Shown piece after piece: positions 45,228 to 53,410 of a DNA stretch of 64,000 bases. Made by a program: the position numbers and the translations under genes. Position 1 is the first letter of the stretch. Each line of letters starts with the position of its first letter. Source of the DNA: Arthrobacter cryoconiti (GTDB taxonomy: Bacteria; Actinomycetota; Actinomycetes; Actinomycetales; Micrococcaceae). The stretch lies in assembly GCF_020905375.1 (NCBI RefSeq), contig NZ_JAJJBU010000003.1, positions 558,001 to 622,000 of the forward strand. The letters are read 5' to 3'. Under the pieces are notes generated by a model. The model was not told the origin of the DNA and did no database searches. It saw only the letters and a program-made list of their open reading frames with translations.

Positions 45228-46112
45228 CTAGAACTCTTCGCCTTCTCCCACGACAGCTGAGGCAGGGCCAACGATGCACGGATCAGGGACGCCCACCAGC
45301 TCTTGGTCTTTACCCGTATAGTCAAACAAACTCAACACATGGCGCATAGCCCCCAACCTGGCCCGTTTCTTATCGTTGGACTTCACCACAGTCCACGGCG
45401 CGTGGCGGGTGTCAGTCTTTTTGAACATGCGTTCTTTAGCCGCGGTGTACGCATCCCACTTGTCCAGTGAGGCGAGGTCCATGGGGGAGAGCTTCCACTG
45501 TCGGACCGGGTCCACTTGACGGATGATGAACCGGGTTCGCTGCTCGGCTTGTGTGACGGAAAACCAAAACTTGATGACCGTTATGCCATCGTTGGCCAAC
45601 ATACGTTCAAACAACGGTGCCTGCCGGATGAACTCGTCGTATTGGTCCTTGGAACAAAAGTCCATAACCCGCTCCACGCCCGTGCGGTTATACCAAGAGC
45701 GGTCAAAGAGCACCATTTCTCCGGCGCTCGGCAGGTGGGCCACATACCGCTGAAAATACCACTGCGTAGACTCACGTTTGCTTGGCTTTTCCAGTGCGAC
45801 GACCCTGGTTCCCCGAGGATTCAGGTGCTCAGTAAAACGCTTGATGGTCCCGCCCTTGCCAGCGGCATCGCGGCCCTCAAACAAAATGACCACGCGTCGC
45901 CCGGTAGCCTTGATCCATTGCTGAAGTTTGAGTAGTTCAATCTGTAGCAATCGTTTTTCAACGTCGTAGACATCACGCTCCAGCCTGGCTTCGTAGGGAT
46001 AGCCGTCCCGCCACGTATCCACCGCTGATCCGTCCGGGGCTAAAAGCGTTGGATCGTCGTCGTCGTTATCAATAACTAAGTAACCGGTGAAGTCTTGGTG
46101 CGCTTGATTCAT
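45228..46112 (-). CDS. ppk2: Polyphosphate kinase 2
   Basis: 294 residues from the ATG at 46112. A longer in-frame start would run through the opposite-strand sfp-like gene and is rejected. GRDAAGKGG (80-88) is Walker A and DRSWYNRTGVERVM is the Walker B/lid region of class I PPK2. It transfers phosphate between polyphosphate and nucleoside diphosphates. The gene is divergent from the phosphopantetheinyl transferase across 55 bases. Confidence 0.95.
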   Translation of the reverse strand: MNQAHQDFTGYLVIDNDDDDPTLLAPDGSAVDTWRDGYPYEARLERDVYDVEKRLLQIELLKLQQWIKATGRRVVILFEGRDAAGKGGTIKRFTEHLNPRGTRVVALEKPSKRESTQWYFQRYVAHLPSAGEMVLFDRSWYNRTGVERVMDFCSKDQYDEFIRQAPLFERMLANDGITVIKFWFSVTQAEQRTRFIIRQVDPVRQWKLSPMDLASLDKWDAYTAAKERMFKKTDTRHAPWTVVKSNDKKRARLGAMRHVLSLFDYTGKDQELVGVPDPCIVGPASAVVGEGEEF

Positions 46113-46167: not shown

Positions 46168-46845
46168 GTGAACGAATCCTTTTCTAATGACGCCCAGCGG
46201 GTACTTCCCACTGTGCGGGCCTTTGACTTGGCAACTATGGATGGCGTCCCGGCCGAGTCCTTGGACGGAGCCGAACAGGCACGTGCCGCAGGCATGATGG
46301 ATGCGAAAAGTCGTGAGCACTTCATTGCCGGAAGGGTTGCACAGCGAATCATGGCAGCAGAGTTGCTCCATGCCAAACCGCAGGAGCTGTTGGCAGCCTA
46401 CTTATGCCCCGATTGCGGTCCCCAACCGCGTTCTTCGCACGGCCGTCCCGGCTATTTGCTCCACGGGGTGCCAGCGGCCTTATCCATCAGTTTTTCACGA
46501 AGCCACGGCTGGGCACTGGCAGCTATGGTGCCCACGGCGGGTCTTCGCATAGGCATTGATTTGGAACATCGTGCCGCTGTGGGCTTTGCCGGGTTCGACG
46601 ACGTGGCGCTCAGTGCCGCGGAGAAGCTCAGTGTTCTTCGCCTTGCCCCTGATGCGCAGGACGCGTGGCGGGTAGCTGTATGGGCGCGCAAAGAAGCGCT
46701 GGCAAAACACTCGGGTCTGGGTTTGCGCACCGACCCACGGGAAATCCCGGCCTACCCCGAACCAGCTAAGGGCGTGGAGCTGTGGGATCTGGATCGCGAA
46801 GTGTTGGGACTGCCGGCTGGCTTCGCTGCGGCCTTGGCTTTTTAG
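46168..46845 (+). CDS. Sfp-type 4'-phosphopantetheinyl transferase
   Basis: 225 residues, GTG start with GGAG 5 bases upstream. RIGIDLEHR (D131, E133) and VWARKEALAKHSGLGL (W172, K175, E176, K180) are the magnesium and CoA-binding motifs of Sfp-type enzymes, which attach phosphopantetheine to carrier domains. ISFSRSHGWALAAM is the P1-like region. The nearest carrier protein is the T domain of the NRPS-like gene 2 kb away on the other strand, a likely client. Confidence 0.93.
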   Translation: MNESFSNDAQRVLPTVRAFDLATMDGVPAESLDGAEQARAAGMMDAKSREHFIAGRVAQRIMAAELLHAKPQELLAAYLCPDCGPQPRSSHGRPGYLLHGVPAALSISFSRSHGWALAAMVPTAGLRIGIDLEHRAAVGFAGFDDVALSAAEKLSVLRLAPDAQDAWRVAVWARKEALAKHSGLGLRTDPREIPAYPEPAKGVELWDLDREVLGLPAGFAAALAF

Positions 46846-46860
46846 CGGCCAAGGCCTTTT
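46830..46860 (+). terminator. Terminator overlapping the end of the phosphopantetheinyl transferase gene
   Basis: GGCCTTGGC (46830-46838) pairs with GCCAAGGCC (46848-46856), followed by TTTT. The left arm is within the last codons of the gene and the stop lies in the loop. Confidence 0.7.
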
Positions 46861-48277
46861 AGCGGCGGTGGGGGAGCGGTGGGATCGATTGTTGGTACAA
46901 CCATGGCGTAAGGATCGCGGCGGCTGAAAAGCCGGAAACCTCGCAGCAGAGCTGATCGGCCAGGATCACAAACGCTGCGGTGGACACTGAACCGTGCTGA
47001 TTCTGTGCCGCCCAGCGTTGAAGCAGGGGGAAGAAGAGCGATTCTCCGACGGCACAACGGATGGCTTCAAGCGCCAGCGCACCGCGTTTATACACGACGT
47101 CGTCGAACATCTTTGTGGGCCCGGGATCGCCAATGATCACGTCATTGGGTTCCAGCAGCAGTTTTGCATGCGCTGCGGCTGCGCGCTCAAGAACGCTCAG
47201 GGAGCCGCTTTCCTCGGACCAAAGCCACTCGGCGTAGCAGGCGAAACCCTCATGGAGCCAGATGTCGCGCCACGACGCAAGCGTAAGTGAATTACCAAAC
47301 CATTGGTGAGAGAGTTCGTGGGCGATCAAACGCTGTGCTTCCCAGTCGCGTTCGAGGTGGTTACTGCCCAGAATGGACAGCGACTGCGCTTCGAGCGGGA
47401 TTTCCAGAACGTCCTCCGTCACCACGACCGTATAAGCATCGAAAGGGTAGGGTCCAAAACAGGCTGTGAAAACATCCAGCATTTCTCGCTGCCGAGCGAG
47501 GGCCAGGGATGCTTTGGCTTGGAGTTTTTTAGACACCGCCACCGTAATGGGTACTTGGGCCGGTCCGGGTGGAATGGGCAGGCTCAGTAGCCTGTACCGA
47601 CCGATTTGAAGCGTGGCGAGGTAGGTGGACATGGGTGCAGATTGTTCGTACACCCATGTTTCCCGGCTGGACTTTTTTGTCTGCGAGGTCAGAACACCGT
47701 TACATACCACGGTGTAGTCCGCGTCGGTGGTGACAGTAAAGCGATAGGACGCTTTATCGTCGGCCCGGTCATTGCAAGGGAACCACGTCGGGGCCCCCGT
47801 GGGCTGGCCGGCGACTAGCACGCCGTCGTTCAGTTCCTCCCAACCAACGTCACCCCATTCGCCGTCGTCCGGGGCAGGAAAGCCACTGTAACGAATATCC
47901 ATGGTGAAGTCCGTGCCGGCCTCCAGCGGGGTGGGCAGGCGCAACTGTAGTTTCCCGTGCAGCGCAGAGTGCTTCAGGACCCGAACTCCGTCCACAGAAG
48001 CCTTGTCCATGCCGACGCCGATCAGGTCAAGGTCCACATGGGTGAGGGGGACAAGCGCCCGTGCCGTGATGACGGCCCGCCCCGCAAGATGGTTCCCGGC
48101 GAGGCGGACTTGCAGATCTAATTCGTAATGTTCCACCGTATAGCTGGTGCTGCCGTGTAAAGGAATATATGAATCCGATGGCGCCGGAGTGAGAAGGGCC
48201 GCCAGCGCGCTGGTGGAAGGCCGCGGGCGGTGCAGGAATCTCATGCTGTGCTCGGTATCCAAATCGGTGGGGAACAT
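46859..48277 (-). CDS. M1-family zinc aminopeptidase
   Basis: 472 residues. HELSHQWFGN (H320, E321, H324) and E343 in LHEGFACYAEW form the HExxH-x18-E zinc site. The substrate motif usually reading GAMEN is PLEAQSL here, as in a subset of M1 enzymes. The protein stops soon after the catalytic domain, so it lacks the long C-terminal helical domain of PepN. No signal peptide. Its ATG overlaps the stop of the upstream Pls-type synthetase by one base (TAATG), showing tight coupling. Possible role: trimming or degrading the synthetase product. Confidence 0.92.
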   Translation of the reverse strand: MFPTDLDTEHSMRFLHRPRPSTSALAALLTPAPSDSYIPLHGSTSYTVEHYELDLQVRLAGNHLAGRAVITARALVPLTHVDLDLIGVGMDKASVDGVRVLKHSALHGKLQLRLPTPLEAGTDFTMDIRYSGFPAPDDGEWGDVGWEELNDGVLVAGQPTGAPTWFPCNDRADDKASYRFTVTTDADYTVVCNGVLTSQTKKSSRETWVYEQSAPMSTYLATLQIGRYRLLSLPIPPGPAQVPITVAVSKKLQAKASLALARQREMLDVFTACFGPYPFDAYTVVVTEDVLEIPLEAQSLSILGSNHLERDWEAQRLIAHELSHQWFGNSLTLASWRDIWLHEGFACYAEWLWSEESGSLSVLERAAAAHAKLLLEPNDVIIGDPGPTKMFDDVVYKRGALALEAIRCAVGESLFFPLLQRWAAQNQHGSVSTAAFVILADQLCCEVSGFSAAAILTPWLYQQSIPPLPHRR

Positions 48278-51200
48278 TAGGCGCGGTCGGCGAATTCTGG
48301 TCCCTTCCAGGGACTGATGGGGTTGCCCATCCAGTAACTGCTAGCAGGTACCGTTTCGCCACGCATGACCAGGGATGCCGGACCCACGGTACCGCTGCGA
48401 GCTATTCGCGCCGCTGGCAGGATAACTCCATGCGGACCCATGGTGGCTCCCTCCTCCAGAGTAACCGTATCGATGGCCATGACTCTGTCATGGAAGAGGT
48501 GGGTCTGGATCACGCAGCCGCGGTTGACGGTGGAACTTGCGCCCAGTGTGACCAGATCGGCTTCCGGTAGCCAGTAGCTCTCACACCATGCGCCATGGCC
48601 GATCTTGGCACCTAATGCACGCAACCACCAGACCATGGCAGGCGTGCCCACAGCGGCGCGTGCAAACCACGGAGCGCTGACCATCTCAATGAAAGTATCC
48701 ACCACCTCATTGCGCCAAATGAATGAACTCCACAACGGGTGCTCGCTGCGTTTGATCCGCCCCACGAGAAGCCACTTGGCAGCCACGGAACTACCTGCGG
48801 CAAAGGCCCCTGCCGACACCATCACGATGCCGCTGACAACGGCCGCTAGCCAGTAGCCACCAGCTTGAGCAACGGCGTCAAGCACGCACAGCACTGCGCA
48901 CGCCACAGCTACGGTAAGCACGGTGGGAACCAGACGGCAGCTTTCCCAGAGAGCCCGAGCTACTTTTAGCCGGAGTGGTGGAGCGAAGGTCAGCGACTCG
49001 TCGGTGTTTAGATTAGTCCGGCGCAAGCGTACGGGCGGACTGCCCAACCACGAGGTGCCCGCTTTTGCCTTCGCAGGGGCAGCAGATAAGACGGCCACCA
49101 ACGAGTTGCGAGGCATGGTGCGGCCCGCAGCCGCCATCCCCGAATTACCAAGGAACGAGCGTTTGCCAACCTTGGCTGGCGCAATGTGAATGTATCCGCC
49201 GCCCAGTTCGTATGAGGCGATCATGGTGTCATCAGCCAGGAAAGCTCCGGAACCAATGGTTGTCATTTTAGGCAGCAGCAGCACTGTAGAGGCTTCCACG
49301 TTCTTGCCGACCTTGGCCCCCAACAGCCGCAGCCAGAGTGGAGTGAATAAGCTTGAATAGATTGGGAAGAGGAGATCGCGCGCCATATCCAGGACCCGCT
49401 CTGTGGCCCAGACCTGCCAGCCTATGCGGCTGCGAACAGGGTAGTGTCCTTCGCGGAGCCCCACACCGAGCAGGCGAACCGTCGCCATGATCAGCACCAG
49501 CAAGGTGAAAAACCAGGTCAGCGCGGCAAGCGGCACAACCCTCAAGAGAATCGGGGTAGCAGCAAAGAAGGACTGCTGACCGTTAACGGCTCCCAGCACG
49601 ACGGCGATGGCGGCGGCAGCGGCGAGGAACGGAATCAGCGACAAGATGGCAGATGCAACGGCAAACAGGATTCCCACGTGCTTTGGGGTAGGAGTGCGCT
49701 GTTCCGGCCACGACTGCGTGGCCTTGCCAGTCCGTTCCGCTGGGGATCCGGAGACGGTTACTCCCGGTTTGACCTTGCCGCGCACTGCGGAGCCCGGGGC
49801 AACGTGGGCCCCGGCCCCGATGCGGGCGCCAGGCATCACCGTGCTACGCGCCCCAACGACCGCGCCCGTTCCCACGGAAATCTCACCAATGTGAACCCAG
49901 TCGCCATCTATCCACCAACCGGATAGATCCACTTCCGGTTCAATGGAGGCGCCCTCAGCCAAACGCAGAAGTCCAGTCACTGGTGGGACCGAGTGAAGAT
50001 CTACGTTCTTGCCGATCTTTGCCCCTAAGGCGCGGGCGTAATACGGCACCCAGGGCGCACTGGCTAAGGTGACGGCACCGACCATATCGGCGATTTGTTC
50101 TGCTAACCACAGCCGCAGATGAACCTTGCCTGAGCGCGGATAGCTACCCGGGCGCACTGCTCGCAAGAGGAGACGAGCCGCCAGTACAGAGATTCCCATG
50201 CGTCCCCACGGCGACACAAAGAGCACCCAGGAAAGGGCGACCCACCACCAGGAAATGGTTGGTCCGCTCAGCAGGAAACCTTGCCACGCGGCAATATTAT
50301 TCAACGCCATCAAGTAGGTGAGCCAGCGCATTCCCACGAGAACGTGCAGGGGTGCGCCCATGAGCGTCTGAAAGATTTGGGAACTTCTTCGGGTTCTACC
50401 CACAGTGCGGTTGACGGCTTTAGTTGCGTTGCCGGTGGGCACGGAGCCCACAGCAAGTTCAAGCAGGGCTCCAATCCGGGGGTGCGAGTAGACGTCGGCC
50501 ACGGTAATGCGCGGGTAGCGCTGTCGAAGCGCCGAAACGAGCTGGGCAGCGGCAAGACTGCCGCCTCCACTGGCAAAGAAGTCGGTGTCCAGCGATGACG
50601 GGTCACCGCCCAAGACGGCACGCCATTGTTCCAGCACCCATGCGCCGTCCGGATCCAACGTCCCGCTCAGGGAGTCTGCGTCATCCGCGGATTGTTCCAA
50701 AGGCCACGGTAGAGCGTTCCGATCCACCTTTCCGCTGATTTTGGTGGGCAGGGAATCGGCAACAGTGAGGAGGGGGATCAAGGACGCCGGCAAAGAGATT
50801 TCGAGCAGAGCTCGGAGAGCAAGAACATCCGGGATGATCCCGGCAGCGGGCACCAGATAACCTACCAAGAGTTGGCTGCCACCTGCCGTTTCTTGGACGG
50901 CTGCGGCGGCCCCTGCGATGTTGGGCAGGCTTTGCAACGCTGCGTCGATTTCACCTAGTTCAATGCGGCGTCCTGCCAGTTTCACTTGGTCATCAGCCCG
51001 TCCCATGAACACCAGACCGTCGCGATCAAGCCTGACTAAATCTCCGGATCTGTACGCACGTTCCCAGCCAAACGCGGGCATTGGTGCATATTTTTCGGCA
51101 TCTTTCTCCGGATCGAGATAGCGGGCTAAGCCAACGCCTGCGATGATCAGTTCGCCCACTTCTCCTTCCGCAACGGGAGCGCCGCTCGAATCGACAACGG

Positions 51201-52254
51201 CCAAGTCCCACCCGTTGAGGGGCAGCCCTATCCGGACGGGTCCGGCTCCGCCCAAGGGGGCGGCGCACGCCACAACTGTCGCTTCGGTAGGGCCATAAGT
51301 GTTCCATACCTCCCTGCCATGAACCGCCAGCCTGGCGGCCAGATCTGGAGGGCAGGCTTCTCCACCAAAAATAAGGAGTCGAACGGATTCCAGTGCTTCA
51401 ACAGGCCAAAGAGCGGCCAGGGTTGGCACGGTGGAAACGATGGTTATGCCGTGTGAAATCAGCCAGGGACCCAGGTCCATGCCTGAACGGACCAGTGAGC
51501 GTGGTGCTGGCACCAAAGCCGCTCCGGAGCGCCATGCCAGCCACATCTCTTCGCAAGAGGCGTCGAAAGCTACGGAAAGCCCGGCCAGAACCCGATCTTC
51601 AGGCCCGATTGGATCGCACGGCAGAAAGATGCGAGCTTCCGCGTCCACGAATGCTGCGGCGGAACGATTGCTAACAGCAACCCCTTTGGGAGTACCTGTT
51701 GAACCCGACGTGAAAATGATCCATGCGTCGTCGCTGGGAATCGGGTCTCTTTCCTCTGCTACTGCGGAGCCGATTTCACGAGACTCCGTTGTGGGGGGCG
51801 TCGCTGCCTGCTCGCCTAGCACAGCTGCCACAGCGGCTTCCCGGAAGACGAGCGCGGCCCGCTCCTGTGGATCGTCGGCATCCACCGGAACATACGCCGC
51901 GCCGATGGAGAGAATGGCCAAAATGGCCAAGTAGAGTCCGGACGTGCCGGAGGGTATCCGCACACCAATTCTGTCCCCGGCTCCCAGACCGGAGCGTCTC
52001 AATTCCGTGGCTTTTGTGCGCACTGCTTTCAGCAATTCCTCGTAGCTGAGGGCTTTGACACCGTCATCCAGCGCCGTAGCGTCCGGGTGGGCCTGCGCAG
52101 TTGCCATGAATACTTCCCACAGCGTCCTGGGCTCCGATGCCAGTTCGCTACCAGGCATTTGCGCGGCATATTCAACTGCCACGGAGCTTCTCGCATCGGA
52201 CTGTGGCTGGGCACTGTTCATGGTGGCAGGGTTCACCGCTCCACCGTGCACCAT
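48277..52254 (-). CDS. Pls-type non-ribosomal peptide synthetase (A-T plus three membrane/beta-helix modules)
   Basis: 1325 residues (an ATG at 52221 is an alternative start). Adenylation domain about 45-515: FTSGSTGTPKGVAVS (181-195), NTYGPTEATVV, YRSGDLVRLD and catalytic K509. Carrier domain: FFASGGGSL with S566. Then three repeats of membrane helices (about 640-700, 866-935, 1111-1166), each tied to a hexapeptide beta-helix opened by LGAKIG, LGAKVG or LGAKIG (743, 978, 1214). This is the layout of epsilon-poly-L-lysine synthetase. Pocket residues D231, A232, E235, S274, I295, G297, T319, V327, V328 (plus K509) resemble lysine codes. No condensation or thioesterase domain. The product is predicted, not known. 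Confidence 0.9.
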   Translation of the reverse strand: MVHGGAVNPATMNSAQPQSDARSSVAVEYAAQMPGSELASEPRTLWEVFMATAQAHPDATALDDGVKALSYEELLKAVRTKATELRRSGLGAGDRIGVRIPSGTSGLYLAILAILSIGAAYVPVDADDPQERAALVFREAAVAAVLGEQAATPPTTESREIGSAVAEERDPIPSDDAWIIFTSGSTGTPKGVAVSNRSAAAFVDAEARIFLPCDPIGPEDRVLAGLSVAFDASCEEMWLAWRSGAALVPAPRSLVRSGMDLGPWLISHGITIVSTVPTLAALWPVEALESVRLLIFGGEACPPDLAARLAVHGREVWNTYGPTEATVVACAAPLGGAGPVRIGLPLNGWDLAVVDSSGAPVAEGEVGELIIAGVGLARYLDPEKDAEKYAPMPAFGWERAYRSGDLVRLDRDGLVFMGRADDQVKLAGRRIELGEIDAALQSLPNIAGAAAAVQETAGGSQLLVGYLVPAAGIIPDVLALRALLEISLPASLIPLLTVADSLPTKISGKVDRNALPWPLEQSADDADSLSGTLDPDGAWVLEQWRAVLGGDPSSLDTDFFASGGGSLAAAQLVSALRQRYPRITVADVYSHPRIGALLELAVGSVPTGNATKAVNRTVGRTRRSSQIFQTLMGAPLHVLVGMRWLTYLMALNNIAAWQGFLLSGPTISWWWVALSWVLFVSPWGRMGISVLAARLLLRAVRPGSYPRSGKVHLRLWLAEQIADMVGAVTLASAPWVPYYARALGAKIGKNVDLHSVPPVTGLLRLAEGASIEPEVDLSGWWIDGDWVHIGEISVGTGAVVGARSTVMPGARIGAGAHVAPGSAVRGKVKPGVTVSGSPAERTGKATQSWPEQRTPTPKHVGILFAVASAILSLIPFLAAAAAIAVVLGAVNGQQSFFAATPILLRVVPLAALTWFFTLLVLIMATVRLLGVGLREGHYPVRSRIGWQVWATERVLDMARDLLFPIYSSLFTPLWLRLLGAKVGKNVEASTVLLLPKMTTIGSGAFLADDTMIASYELGGGYIHIAPAKVGKRSFLGNSGMAAAGRTMPRNSLVAVLSAAPAKAKAGTSWLGSPPVRLRRTNLNTDESLTFAPPLRLKVARALWESCRLVPTVLTVAVACAVLCVLDAVAQAGGYWLAAVVSGIVMVSAGAFAAGSSVAAKWLLVGRIKRSEHPLWSSFIWRNEVVDTFIEMVSAPWFARAAVGTPAMVWWLRALGAKIGHGAWCESYWLPEADLVTLGASSTVNRGCVIQTHLFHDRVMAIDTVTLEEGATMGPHGVILPAARIARSGTVGPASLVMRGETVPASSYWMGNPISPWKGPEFADRA

Positions 52255-52333: not shown

Positions 52334-53308
52334 TTAAGGCTCCAAAATAACCTTGCCGGTGGTGGAACGGGACTCCAGCGCAGTGTGGGCTGCCCCGGCT
52401 TTAGATAAGGGAAAACGGGCGCCTATCCTGGCGGTGAGATTGCCCTCAGCTACCGCGTTGAAAACCTCAGATGCTCGCCAGCGGCGTTCCTTCACATTCA
52501 AAAGATAGTCGCCCAGCTTCGGTCGAATGATGGAAAGAGATCCGCCGCTATTGAGTCGCTGTAGATCAAAGGGAGGCACTTGTCCTGATGCGCCACCAAA
52601 AAGCACCAACGTTCCGCGCGTGCGCAGCGACGCCAAGGAACCGTCAAAGGTGTCTTTTCCGACGCCGTCGAACACCACGTCCACTCCATCACCGCAGGTG
52701 AGCTCCTGCACGGCCTGCGCGAAGTCCTCGTAGCGCAGAACGTCATCAGCGCCTGCCACACGGGAAAGCTCTTCCTTTTCATCGGTGGAGACCGTGGTAA
52801 TGACGCGCGCCTCACGCTCCTTGAGCATCTGAGTCAACAGCAATCCAACACCGCCAGCGCCAGCGTGCAGCAGGACCGTCTGCCCAGGTTCCACATGGTA
52901 ACTGGAGTTCATAAGGTAATGGGCGCTCATGCCCTGGAGGGGTAACGCGGCTGCAATATCCAAAGGTATGGCGGCGGGTACGTGCAACGCTTTGTGTGCT
53001 TCGACGATGGCGTACTGAGCGTACGTGCCGCGGCCCTCTGCCGTGGCCACCTGGTCTCCCACGGAGAAGTCGGTGACTCCATCACCAACGGCCACCACAG
53101 TTCCCGCAGCTTCTGTGCCCGGGGTAAAGGGGAACGTTGCGGGGTAGACGCCGCTCCGTTGGTAAGTTTCAATGAAGTTCACTCCCGCAGCCGCGACCTT
53201 GAACAGAACCTCTCCGGGGCCGGCCTCCGGAATCGTCACCTCGCGTAAAGAGAGGACCTCTGGGCCGCCAGACGCCTCTGCGACAATGGCGCTGCACTGA
53301 GTGTTCAT
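52334..53308 (-). CDS. Zinc-free quinone oxidoreductase (MDR family)
   Basis: 324 residues from the ATG at 53308 (GGGGA 6 bases upstream); the frame stays open further up but without conservation. GVNFIETYQRSGVYP and the nucleotide loop LLHAGAGGVGLLLTQMLK are typical of NADPH:quinone reductases such as QorA. Structural zinc cysteines are absent. Probably reduces quinones or enones. Divergent from argC. Confidence 0.9.
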   Translation of the reverse strand: MNTQCSAIVAEASGGPEVLSLREVTIPEAGPGEVLFKVAAAGVNFIETYQRSGVYPATFPFTPGTEAAGTVVAVGDGVTDFSVGDQVATAEGRGTYAQYAIVEAHKALHVPAAIPLDIAAALPLQGMSAHYLMNSSYHVEPGQTVLLHAGAGGVGLLLTQMLKEREARVITTVSTDEKEELSRVAGADDVLRYEDFAQAVQELTCGDGVDVVFDGVGKDTFDGSLASLRTRGTLVLFGGASGQVPPFDLQRLNSGGSLSIIRPKLGDYLLNVKERRWRASEVFNAVAEGNLTARIGARFPLSKAGAAHTALESRSTTGKVILEP

Positions 53309-53410
53309 TATGTTCCCCACTTCGTTCTCGTTGAGCTGTGGCCGTCCCGCCTCCTGAGGAAAGGCGTGCGCTTCCTCCATCATAGAACTGGGCAGCATTG
53401 ATGACTCCAT

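Follow-up and report, generated by a model that had tools for sequence, protein, structure and literature searches.

A 64,000-nucleotide stretch of the Arthrobacter cryoconiti genome (NCBI RefSeq assembly GCF_020905375.1, contig NZ_JAJJBU010000003.1, forward-strand positions 558,001 to 622,000; hereafter the window) encodes a nonribosomal peptide synthetase-like (NRPS-like) protein of the Pls type, and its domain plan and gene neighborhood make it very probable that the locus is a cassette for epsilon-poly-L-lysine (epsilon-PL), a lysine polymer already in use as a food preservative. Genes for an M1-family zinc peptidase, a 4'-phosphopantetheinyl transferase (PPTase) and a polyphosphate kinase 2 (PPK2) lie beside the synthetase gene (table 1). 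An earlier interpretation of the window, made from its letters alone (herein the sequence-only reading), had placed it in an Arthrobacter-like host, which is supported. Enzymes of this family have been described from Arthrobacter-like bacteria before, and the locus is ordinary apart from the linked PPK2 gene.

Table 1. Genes of the proposed epsilon-PL locus and its flank, in window coordinates (pairs of numbers give first and last nucleotide)
Feature	Coordinates	Strand	Remarks
Pls-type NRPS-like protein, proposed epsilon-poly-L-lysine synthetase	48277..52254	-	1325 aa, ATG start
M1-family zinc peptidase, PldII-like by position	46859..48277	-	PF01433, PF17900 (Pfam)
Sfp-type 4'-phosphopantetheinyl transferase	46168..46845	+	PF01648; GIDLE, WARKEA motifs; convergent with peptidase gene
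Polyphosphate kinase 2, class-I-like by nearest relatives	45228..46112	-	TIGR03707, PF03976, Walker motifs
Quinone-oxidoreductase-like gene, site flank	52334..53320	-	PF00107, PF08240; listed open reading frame extends to GTG 53560

The synthetase consists of an adenylation (A) domain at about residues 41–520 (AMP-binding, PF00501, matched at 51–378), a thiolation (T) domain (PP-binding, PF00550, residues 539–599, with Ser566) and a membrane/beta-helix terminal domain spanning about residues 622–1313. The NCBIfam equivalog-domain model for the Pls/PosA terminal domain, TIGR02353, scores 696.7 bits over residues 628–1313, where the cut-off is 423.1, and places the protein in the Pls/PosA family. 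Neither a condensation nor a thioesterase domain was found with Pfam, which matched the AMP-binding and PP-binding families and, below threshold, Hexapep; the NCBIfam listing covers 25 of 105 families. LGAK motifs begin at residues 743, 978 and 1214, at intervals of 235 and 236, and an AlphaFold2 model of residues 622–1325 (pLDDT 89.9, pTM 0.89) shows long helices in alternation with three stretches rich in beta strands. The fold matches of this model in the PDB are mostly hexapeptide (beta-helix) acetyltransferases, chiefly of serine, maltose and galactoside, and are modest (E about 2e-5 to 1e-3; TM-score 0.09–0.16 against the whole model); a search of viral folds gave a single match under E 0.001, also an acetyltransferase, and a sequence profile of the domain retrieved hexapeptide-type proteins including acetyltransferases and gamma carbonic anhydrases. 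In a plain hydropathy scan with a threshold of 1.6, the second and third helix sets (858–934 and 1104–1158) were flagged and the first set fell below the threshold. The LGAK motifs, the model and the beta-helix matches together indicate that three acyltransferase-like modules follow one another in tandem, set between membrane helices, with a topology that is predicted. The plan drawn in the sequence-only reading, an A and a T domain followed by three such modules about 235 residues apart, without condensation or thioesterase domain and within the Pls family, is borne out.

The pocket of the A domain reads DAESIGTVVK (D231, A232, E235, S274, I295, G297, T319, V327, V328 and K509). Its first nine residues align to positions 235, 236, 239, 278, 299, 301, 322, 330 and 331 of GrsA (numbering from PDB 1AMU), which reproduces the offsets of +4, +43, +64 and +66 and the one extra residue before the threonine that had been read from the letters; K509 is invariant in the family set described below, though it lies beyond the GrsA stretch used in the alignment. 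The best PDB match of the synthetase is 7WEW (E 6.3e-189), the A domain of the Streptomyces albulus epsilon-PL synthetase, to which the window's A domain is identical at 312 of 469 residues (66.5%) and at all ten pocket positions. An alignment to S. albulus Pls and GrsA, put forward earlier as a check and now run, confirms the pocket and supports its lysine type. The 7WEW structure contains Lys-AMP, described as held by D213, E217, S256, T301 and K495 (PMC11253843), and the pockets reported for ornithine and beta-lysine enzymes are DMEHNGTVSK and DGESISVVNK, respectively (PMC10522769). The second position of the window's pocket, Ala232, is neither the Met of PosA nor the Phe of the PDAP/PDAB synthetases, and by this residue the protein falls into neither of these groups.

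The family set has 133 proteins, the window's included, drawn from 141 loci, and is partly non-independent (L043 and L133 are from the same strain, and L036 and L037 are near identical). Neither the pocket count nor the tree includes the remaining eight loci, namely L042, whose frame is interrupted, and L182, L184, L188, L192, L194, L205 and L221, in which the best open reading frame (ORF) match covers the query only in part; the frame of L040 is interrupted too, yet it passed the length filter and stayed in. D231, E235, K509, S566 and H1252 are kept in all 133 proteins, the window protein and those with DFE-type pockets included. A maximum-likelihood tree of A domains (59 rows, comprising 58 of the 133 proteins and 7WEW, the sole characterized enzyme in a tree from which Corynebacterium variabile and full-length S. 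albulus Pls are absent) parts four DFE-type rows from 54 DAE-type rows and 7WEW with support of 100/100, and two long branches are flagged within the DFE group. The window protein sits among Micrococcaceae on the side of 7WEW. The tree also holds a second Pls-type clade in Micrococcaceae (L050 and L054, from G035 and G027), with the pocket DAESIGTVIK and with no M1 peptidase neighbor seen in the stretch examined; G035 has both kinds of Pls, with DAESIGTVVK and DAESIGTVIK pockets.

Further evidence comes from the adjoining peptidase gene, which encodes an HExxH motif (HELSH at 320) and is joined to the synthetase gene by overlapping stop and start codons (TAATG, the start beginning on the last base of the stop), as expected of a coupled peptidase. 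In S. albulus, pldII is reported to be translationally coupled to pls, and PldII to be the major epsilon-PL-degrading enzyme (PMC9223678). By direct BLASTP, an M1 gene lies downstream on the same strand at a gap of less than 300 bases in 120 of 129 DAE-type loci and 637 to 2206 bases off in three more, and it was not seen in the stretch examined at the other six (one with only 2.5 kb downstream). At the four full-length DFE-type loci, which form the separate clade and whose pocket suggests PDAP/PDAB synthetases, no M1 neighbor was found.

These features set the locus close to systems already described. It shares with S. albulus Pls and PldII the A–T–terminal plan, the ten-residue pocket and the coupled peptidase gene, and differs in having PPTase and PPK2 genes alongside, in its position at the pheT–argC region and in a product that is predicted. 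The C. variabile and coryneform Pls proteins likewise have the same plan and a pls–peptidase operon; the C. variabile homologue, whose native operon includes the peptidase gene, yielded epsilon-PL when expressed in S. coelicolor, so that its product is proved by heterologous expression, whereas the window protein is known from sequence (PMC8117764). The same study of 2021 reports Pls homologues with identical or highly similar pockets in Arthrobacter, Glutamicibacter and six other coryneform genera, and epsilon-PL clusters are now called routinely in genome mining (PMC12067966; PMC10628120, as cluster type NAPAA). PosA, the delta-poly-L-ornithine synthetase of Acinetobacter baumannii, has the same family and plan but its own pocket and a single-gene operon, and the PDAP/PDAB synthetases, alike in family and plan, are set apart by their phenylalanine at pocket position 2 (PMC10522769). 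The cationic homopolymer foreseen in the sequence-only reading is therefore supported, whereas its description as undescribed, and as made of lysine or another diamino acid, is not supported in view of the pocket, the PldII-like neighbor and the coryneform survey (PMC8117764); an undescribed homopolymer was rejected because the pocket equals that of the epsilon-PL synthetase. The window adds one well-supported epsilon-PL locus to a widespread family, of modest use for finding producers outside Streptomyces.

The product is most likely epsilon-PL, to judge from the pocket and gene context. In the mechanism that we propose, the chemistry of the A and T domains is that of the family: the A domain would convert L-lysine and ATP to lysyl-AMP and the lysine would then be loaded onto the T domain, which probably receives its phosphopantetheine arm from the neighboring PPTase. 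The membrane-bound terminal domain, with its three hexapeptide-acyltransferase-like beta-helix modules, would link lysines through isopeptide bonds between alpha-carboxyl and epsilon-amino groups, and the growing chain would exit the cell. Since the invariant His1252, a likely catalytic base, is retained in the third module, that module is the best candidate for the active site. The M1 peptidase would trim or degrade the product in the manner of S. albulus PldII, and PPK2 may use polyphosphate to restore the ATP that polymerization consumes.

Two alternatives to an epsilon-PL cassette have to be weighed. All of the related cationic isopeptides (poly-ornithine, poly-diaminobutyrate, poly-diaminopropionate and poly-beta-lysine) come from homologous A–T–terminal proteins (PMC10522769), and the substrate cannot be read with certainty from pocket residues; we nevertheless regard any of these products as highly improbable here, since the alanine at position 2 is that of lysine enzymes, the published beta-lysine pocket differs, the tree excludes the DFE group and the peptidase neighbor is missing at all full-length DFE loci. 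Other diamino acids were rejected as substrates on the grounds of pocket position 2, the tree and gene context. The second alternative, that the locus is silent or decaying and gives no polymer in this host, we consider unlikely, with all four genes of the window open and the motifs looked for present.

Several observations do weigh against a functional epsilon-PL cassette. Such a locus may be silent, since epsilon-PL was undetected in cultures of C. variabile itself although its gene works in Streptomyces (PMC8117764). Within the genus only 8 of 23 genomes carry pls, and in two of these eight (G001 and G003) the frame is interrupted, while G023, from another genus of the family, keeps two pls fragments between pheT and the oxidoreductase gene. 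The gene is thus dispensable, and these three cases (L040, L042 and L071) point to repeated loss or to sequencing errors. The pocket count is also less telling than it appears: DAESIGTVVK occurs in 127 of the 133 proteins, the window's included (DAESIGTVIK in two, DFE-type in four), a figure that is biased because 80 loci came from a scan with peptide patterns that themselves contain pocket residues (NTYGPTEA and ASCEEMW), being the top 80 among at least 592. Among the 33 usable loci found by the family model alone (from 40, L182–L221, hand-picked among its matches), the same pocket is present in 30.

The PPTase is likely to belong functionally with the synthetase. Its only match in its own genome is itself, and the six other matches to the Pls protein in that genome score just 34.5–53.3 bits; for these reasons it probably serves Pls, and we propose, from gene context, that it loads the T domain. 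PPTase relatives of at least 49% identity are found in the same eight Pls-positive genomes of the genus, in two pieces in G018; in all eight, the PPTase and PPK2 genes both lie no more than about 8 kb from pls, and close relatives of the two are missing near argC in the other 15. Neither the PPTase nor the PPK2 gene is a general feature of pls loci, given that they occur within 6 kb of only 43 and 11, respectively, of the 129 DAE-type loci. In the portions of the open-licence literature consulted, a PPK2 or PPTase gene adjoining pls was not found mentioned, and the term "phosphopantetheinyl" is absent from the main text of PMC8117764.

The PPK2 gene probably starts at the ATG at 46112, the listed ORF reaching a TTG at 46376. 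Its product scores 377.5 bits with TIGR03707 (NCBIfam cut-off 301.8), in line with PPK2 class I. The closest PDB entries, 5LL0 and 6DZG (this one named polyphosphate:ADP phosphotransferase), we take to be class I PPK2 enzymes. In the genus, the eight Pls-positive genomes and no others have a relative with 77% identity or more, at about 3.3 kb or less from pls in seven and at ~8 kb in G009; weaker relatives lie elsewhere in G006, G020 and G015 (65%, 51% and 50%), and a distant one, of 28–33% identity, is present in 22 of the 23 genomes. Across a 148-genome sample of the family, 132 PPK2 matches are listed, and the 24 within 10 kb of pls are the 23 best-scoring ones and a partial match in G453 (71–100% identity), whereas none of the other 108, at 71% identity or less, lies within 10 kb of pls on the same contig, although broken contigs could hide some. 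A PPK2 tree of 32 hand-picked rows contains a single change between linked and unlinked, at a split with support of only 75/84 that recurs in 70% of 200 bootstrap trees; its rows L045 and L226 represent one gene, and L134 and L203 are labelled unlinked though near a pls. A PPK2 gene near pls need not belong to the linked group, since those of L134 and L203, 6.5 and 0.8 kb from pls, fall outside it.

In our samples the linked PPK2 group occurs only near pls–pldII, and on this basis we tentatively suggest, as an idea that could well be wrong, a self-powered epsilon-PL cassette in Micrococcaceae, in which a dedicated PPK2 paralogue recycles nucleotides with polyphosphate and so fuels polymer synthesis from phosphate stores. 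Built-in ATP regeneration of this kind is possible, and it would be a natural case of polymer synthesis coupled to ATP supply from polyphosphate, much as was later engineered in S. albulus, where PPK2 together with a class II PPK2 phosphotransferase is reported to have given 21% more epsilon-PL and 72% more ATP (PMC10012588). Set against this is the nearly even chance that PPK2 is a bystander that plays no part in making the polymer and has merely been inherited vertically at one site. The linked cases are not independent, because many share one ancestral site in the pheT–argC region; of the 78 Pls-positive genomes considered in the family, 24 have a linked PPK2 and 54 lack one (G540 was excluded, its sole match being 31% identical); and the other-group genes of L134 and L203, as well as the distance in G009, would suit a bystander. 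What a bystander explains less readily is the absence of close PPK2 relatives along with pls in all 15 negative genomes of the genus and the concentration of the best-scoring family matches beside pls, with the caveat on draft contigs given above. The pls–PPK2 pair also occurs in L045 and L107 without pheT or argC being seen, but the quinone-oxidoreductase gene is still near there. Within the locus it is this linked PPK2 that merits a test; in its engineered form the strategy did raise yields (PMC10012588).

Two further PPK2 arrangements were seen. In L203 (G421) the PPK2 of the other group lies 847 bases downstream of pls on the opposite strand, with no M1 peptidase seen in the stretch examined; in G560 (C1:640507-647358) the Pls and linked PPK2 matches both contain internal stop codons, as if the cassette decays together.

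In a sample of 394 genomes from the class, 105 have a member of the Pls/PosA family, and the window protein was matched at E 1e-110 or better in 79 of the 148 family genomes. All eight pls genes of the genus lie on the quinone-oxidoreductase–argC side, 51 bases to 7 kb away, and pheT lies on the other side of pls in six (it is outside the examined stretches for G009 and G003). The 15 Pls-negative genomes contain none of the four genes in the 15 kb beside argC, save weak ligase-like matches, with pheT inside the examined stretch in 12. The quinone-oxidoreductase gene is placed outside the cassette because it is present at all 15 of these sites too. The genus pattern is most simply read as a locus inherited at one site and lost repeatedly.

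Six of the loci left out of the tree (L182, L184, L188, L192, L194 and L221) carry the TIGR02353 domain in a shorter ORF of about 840–1110 aa, with the best A–T match in a separate ORF. They are possibly a two-protein variant of the Pls/PosA family, and five of the six belong to a single genus (f37 g60) within the class.

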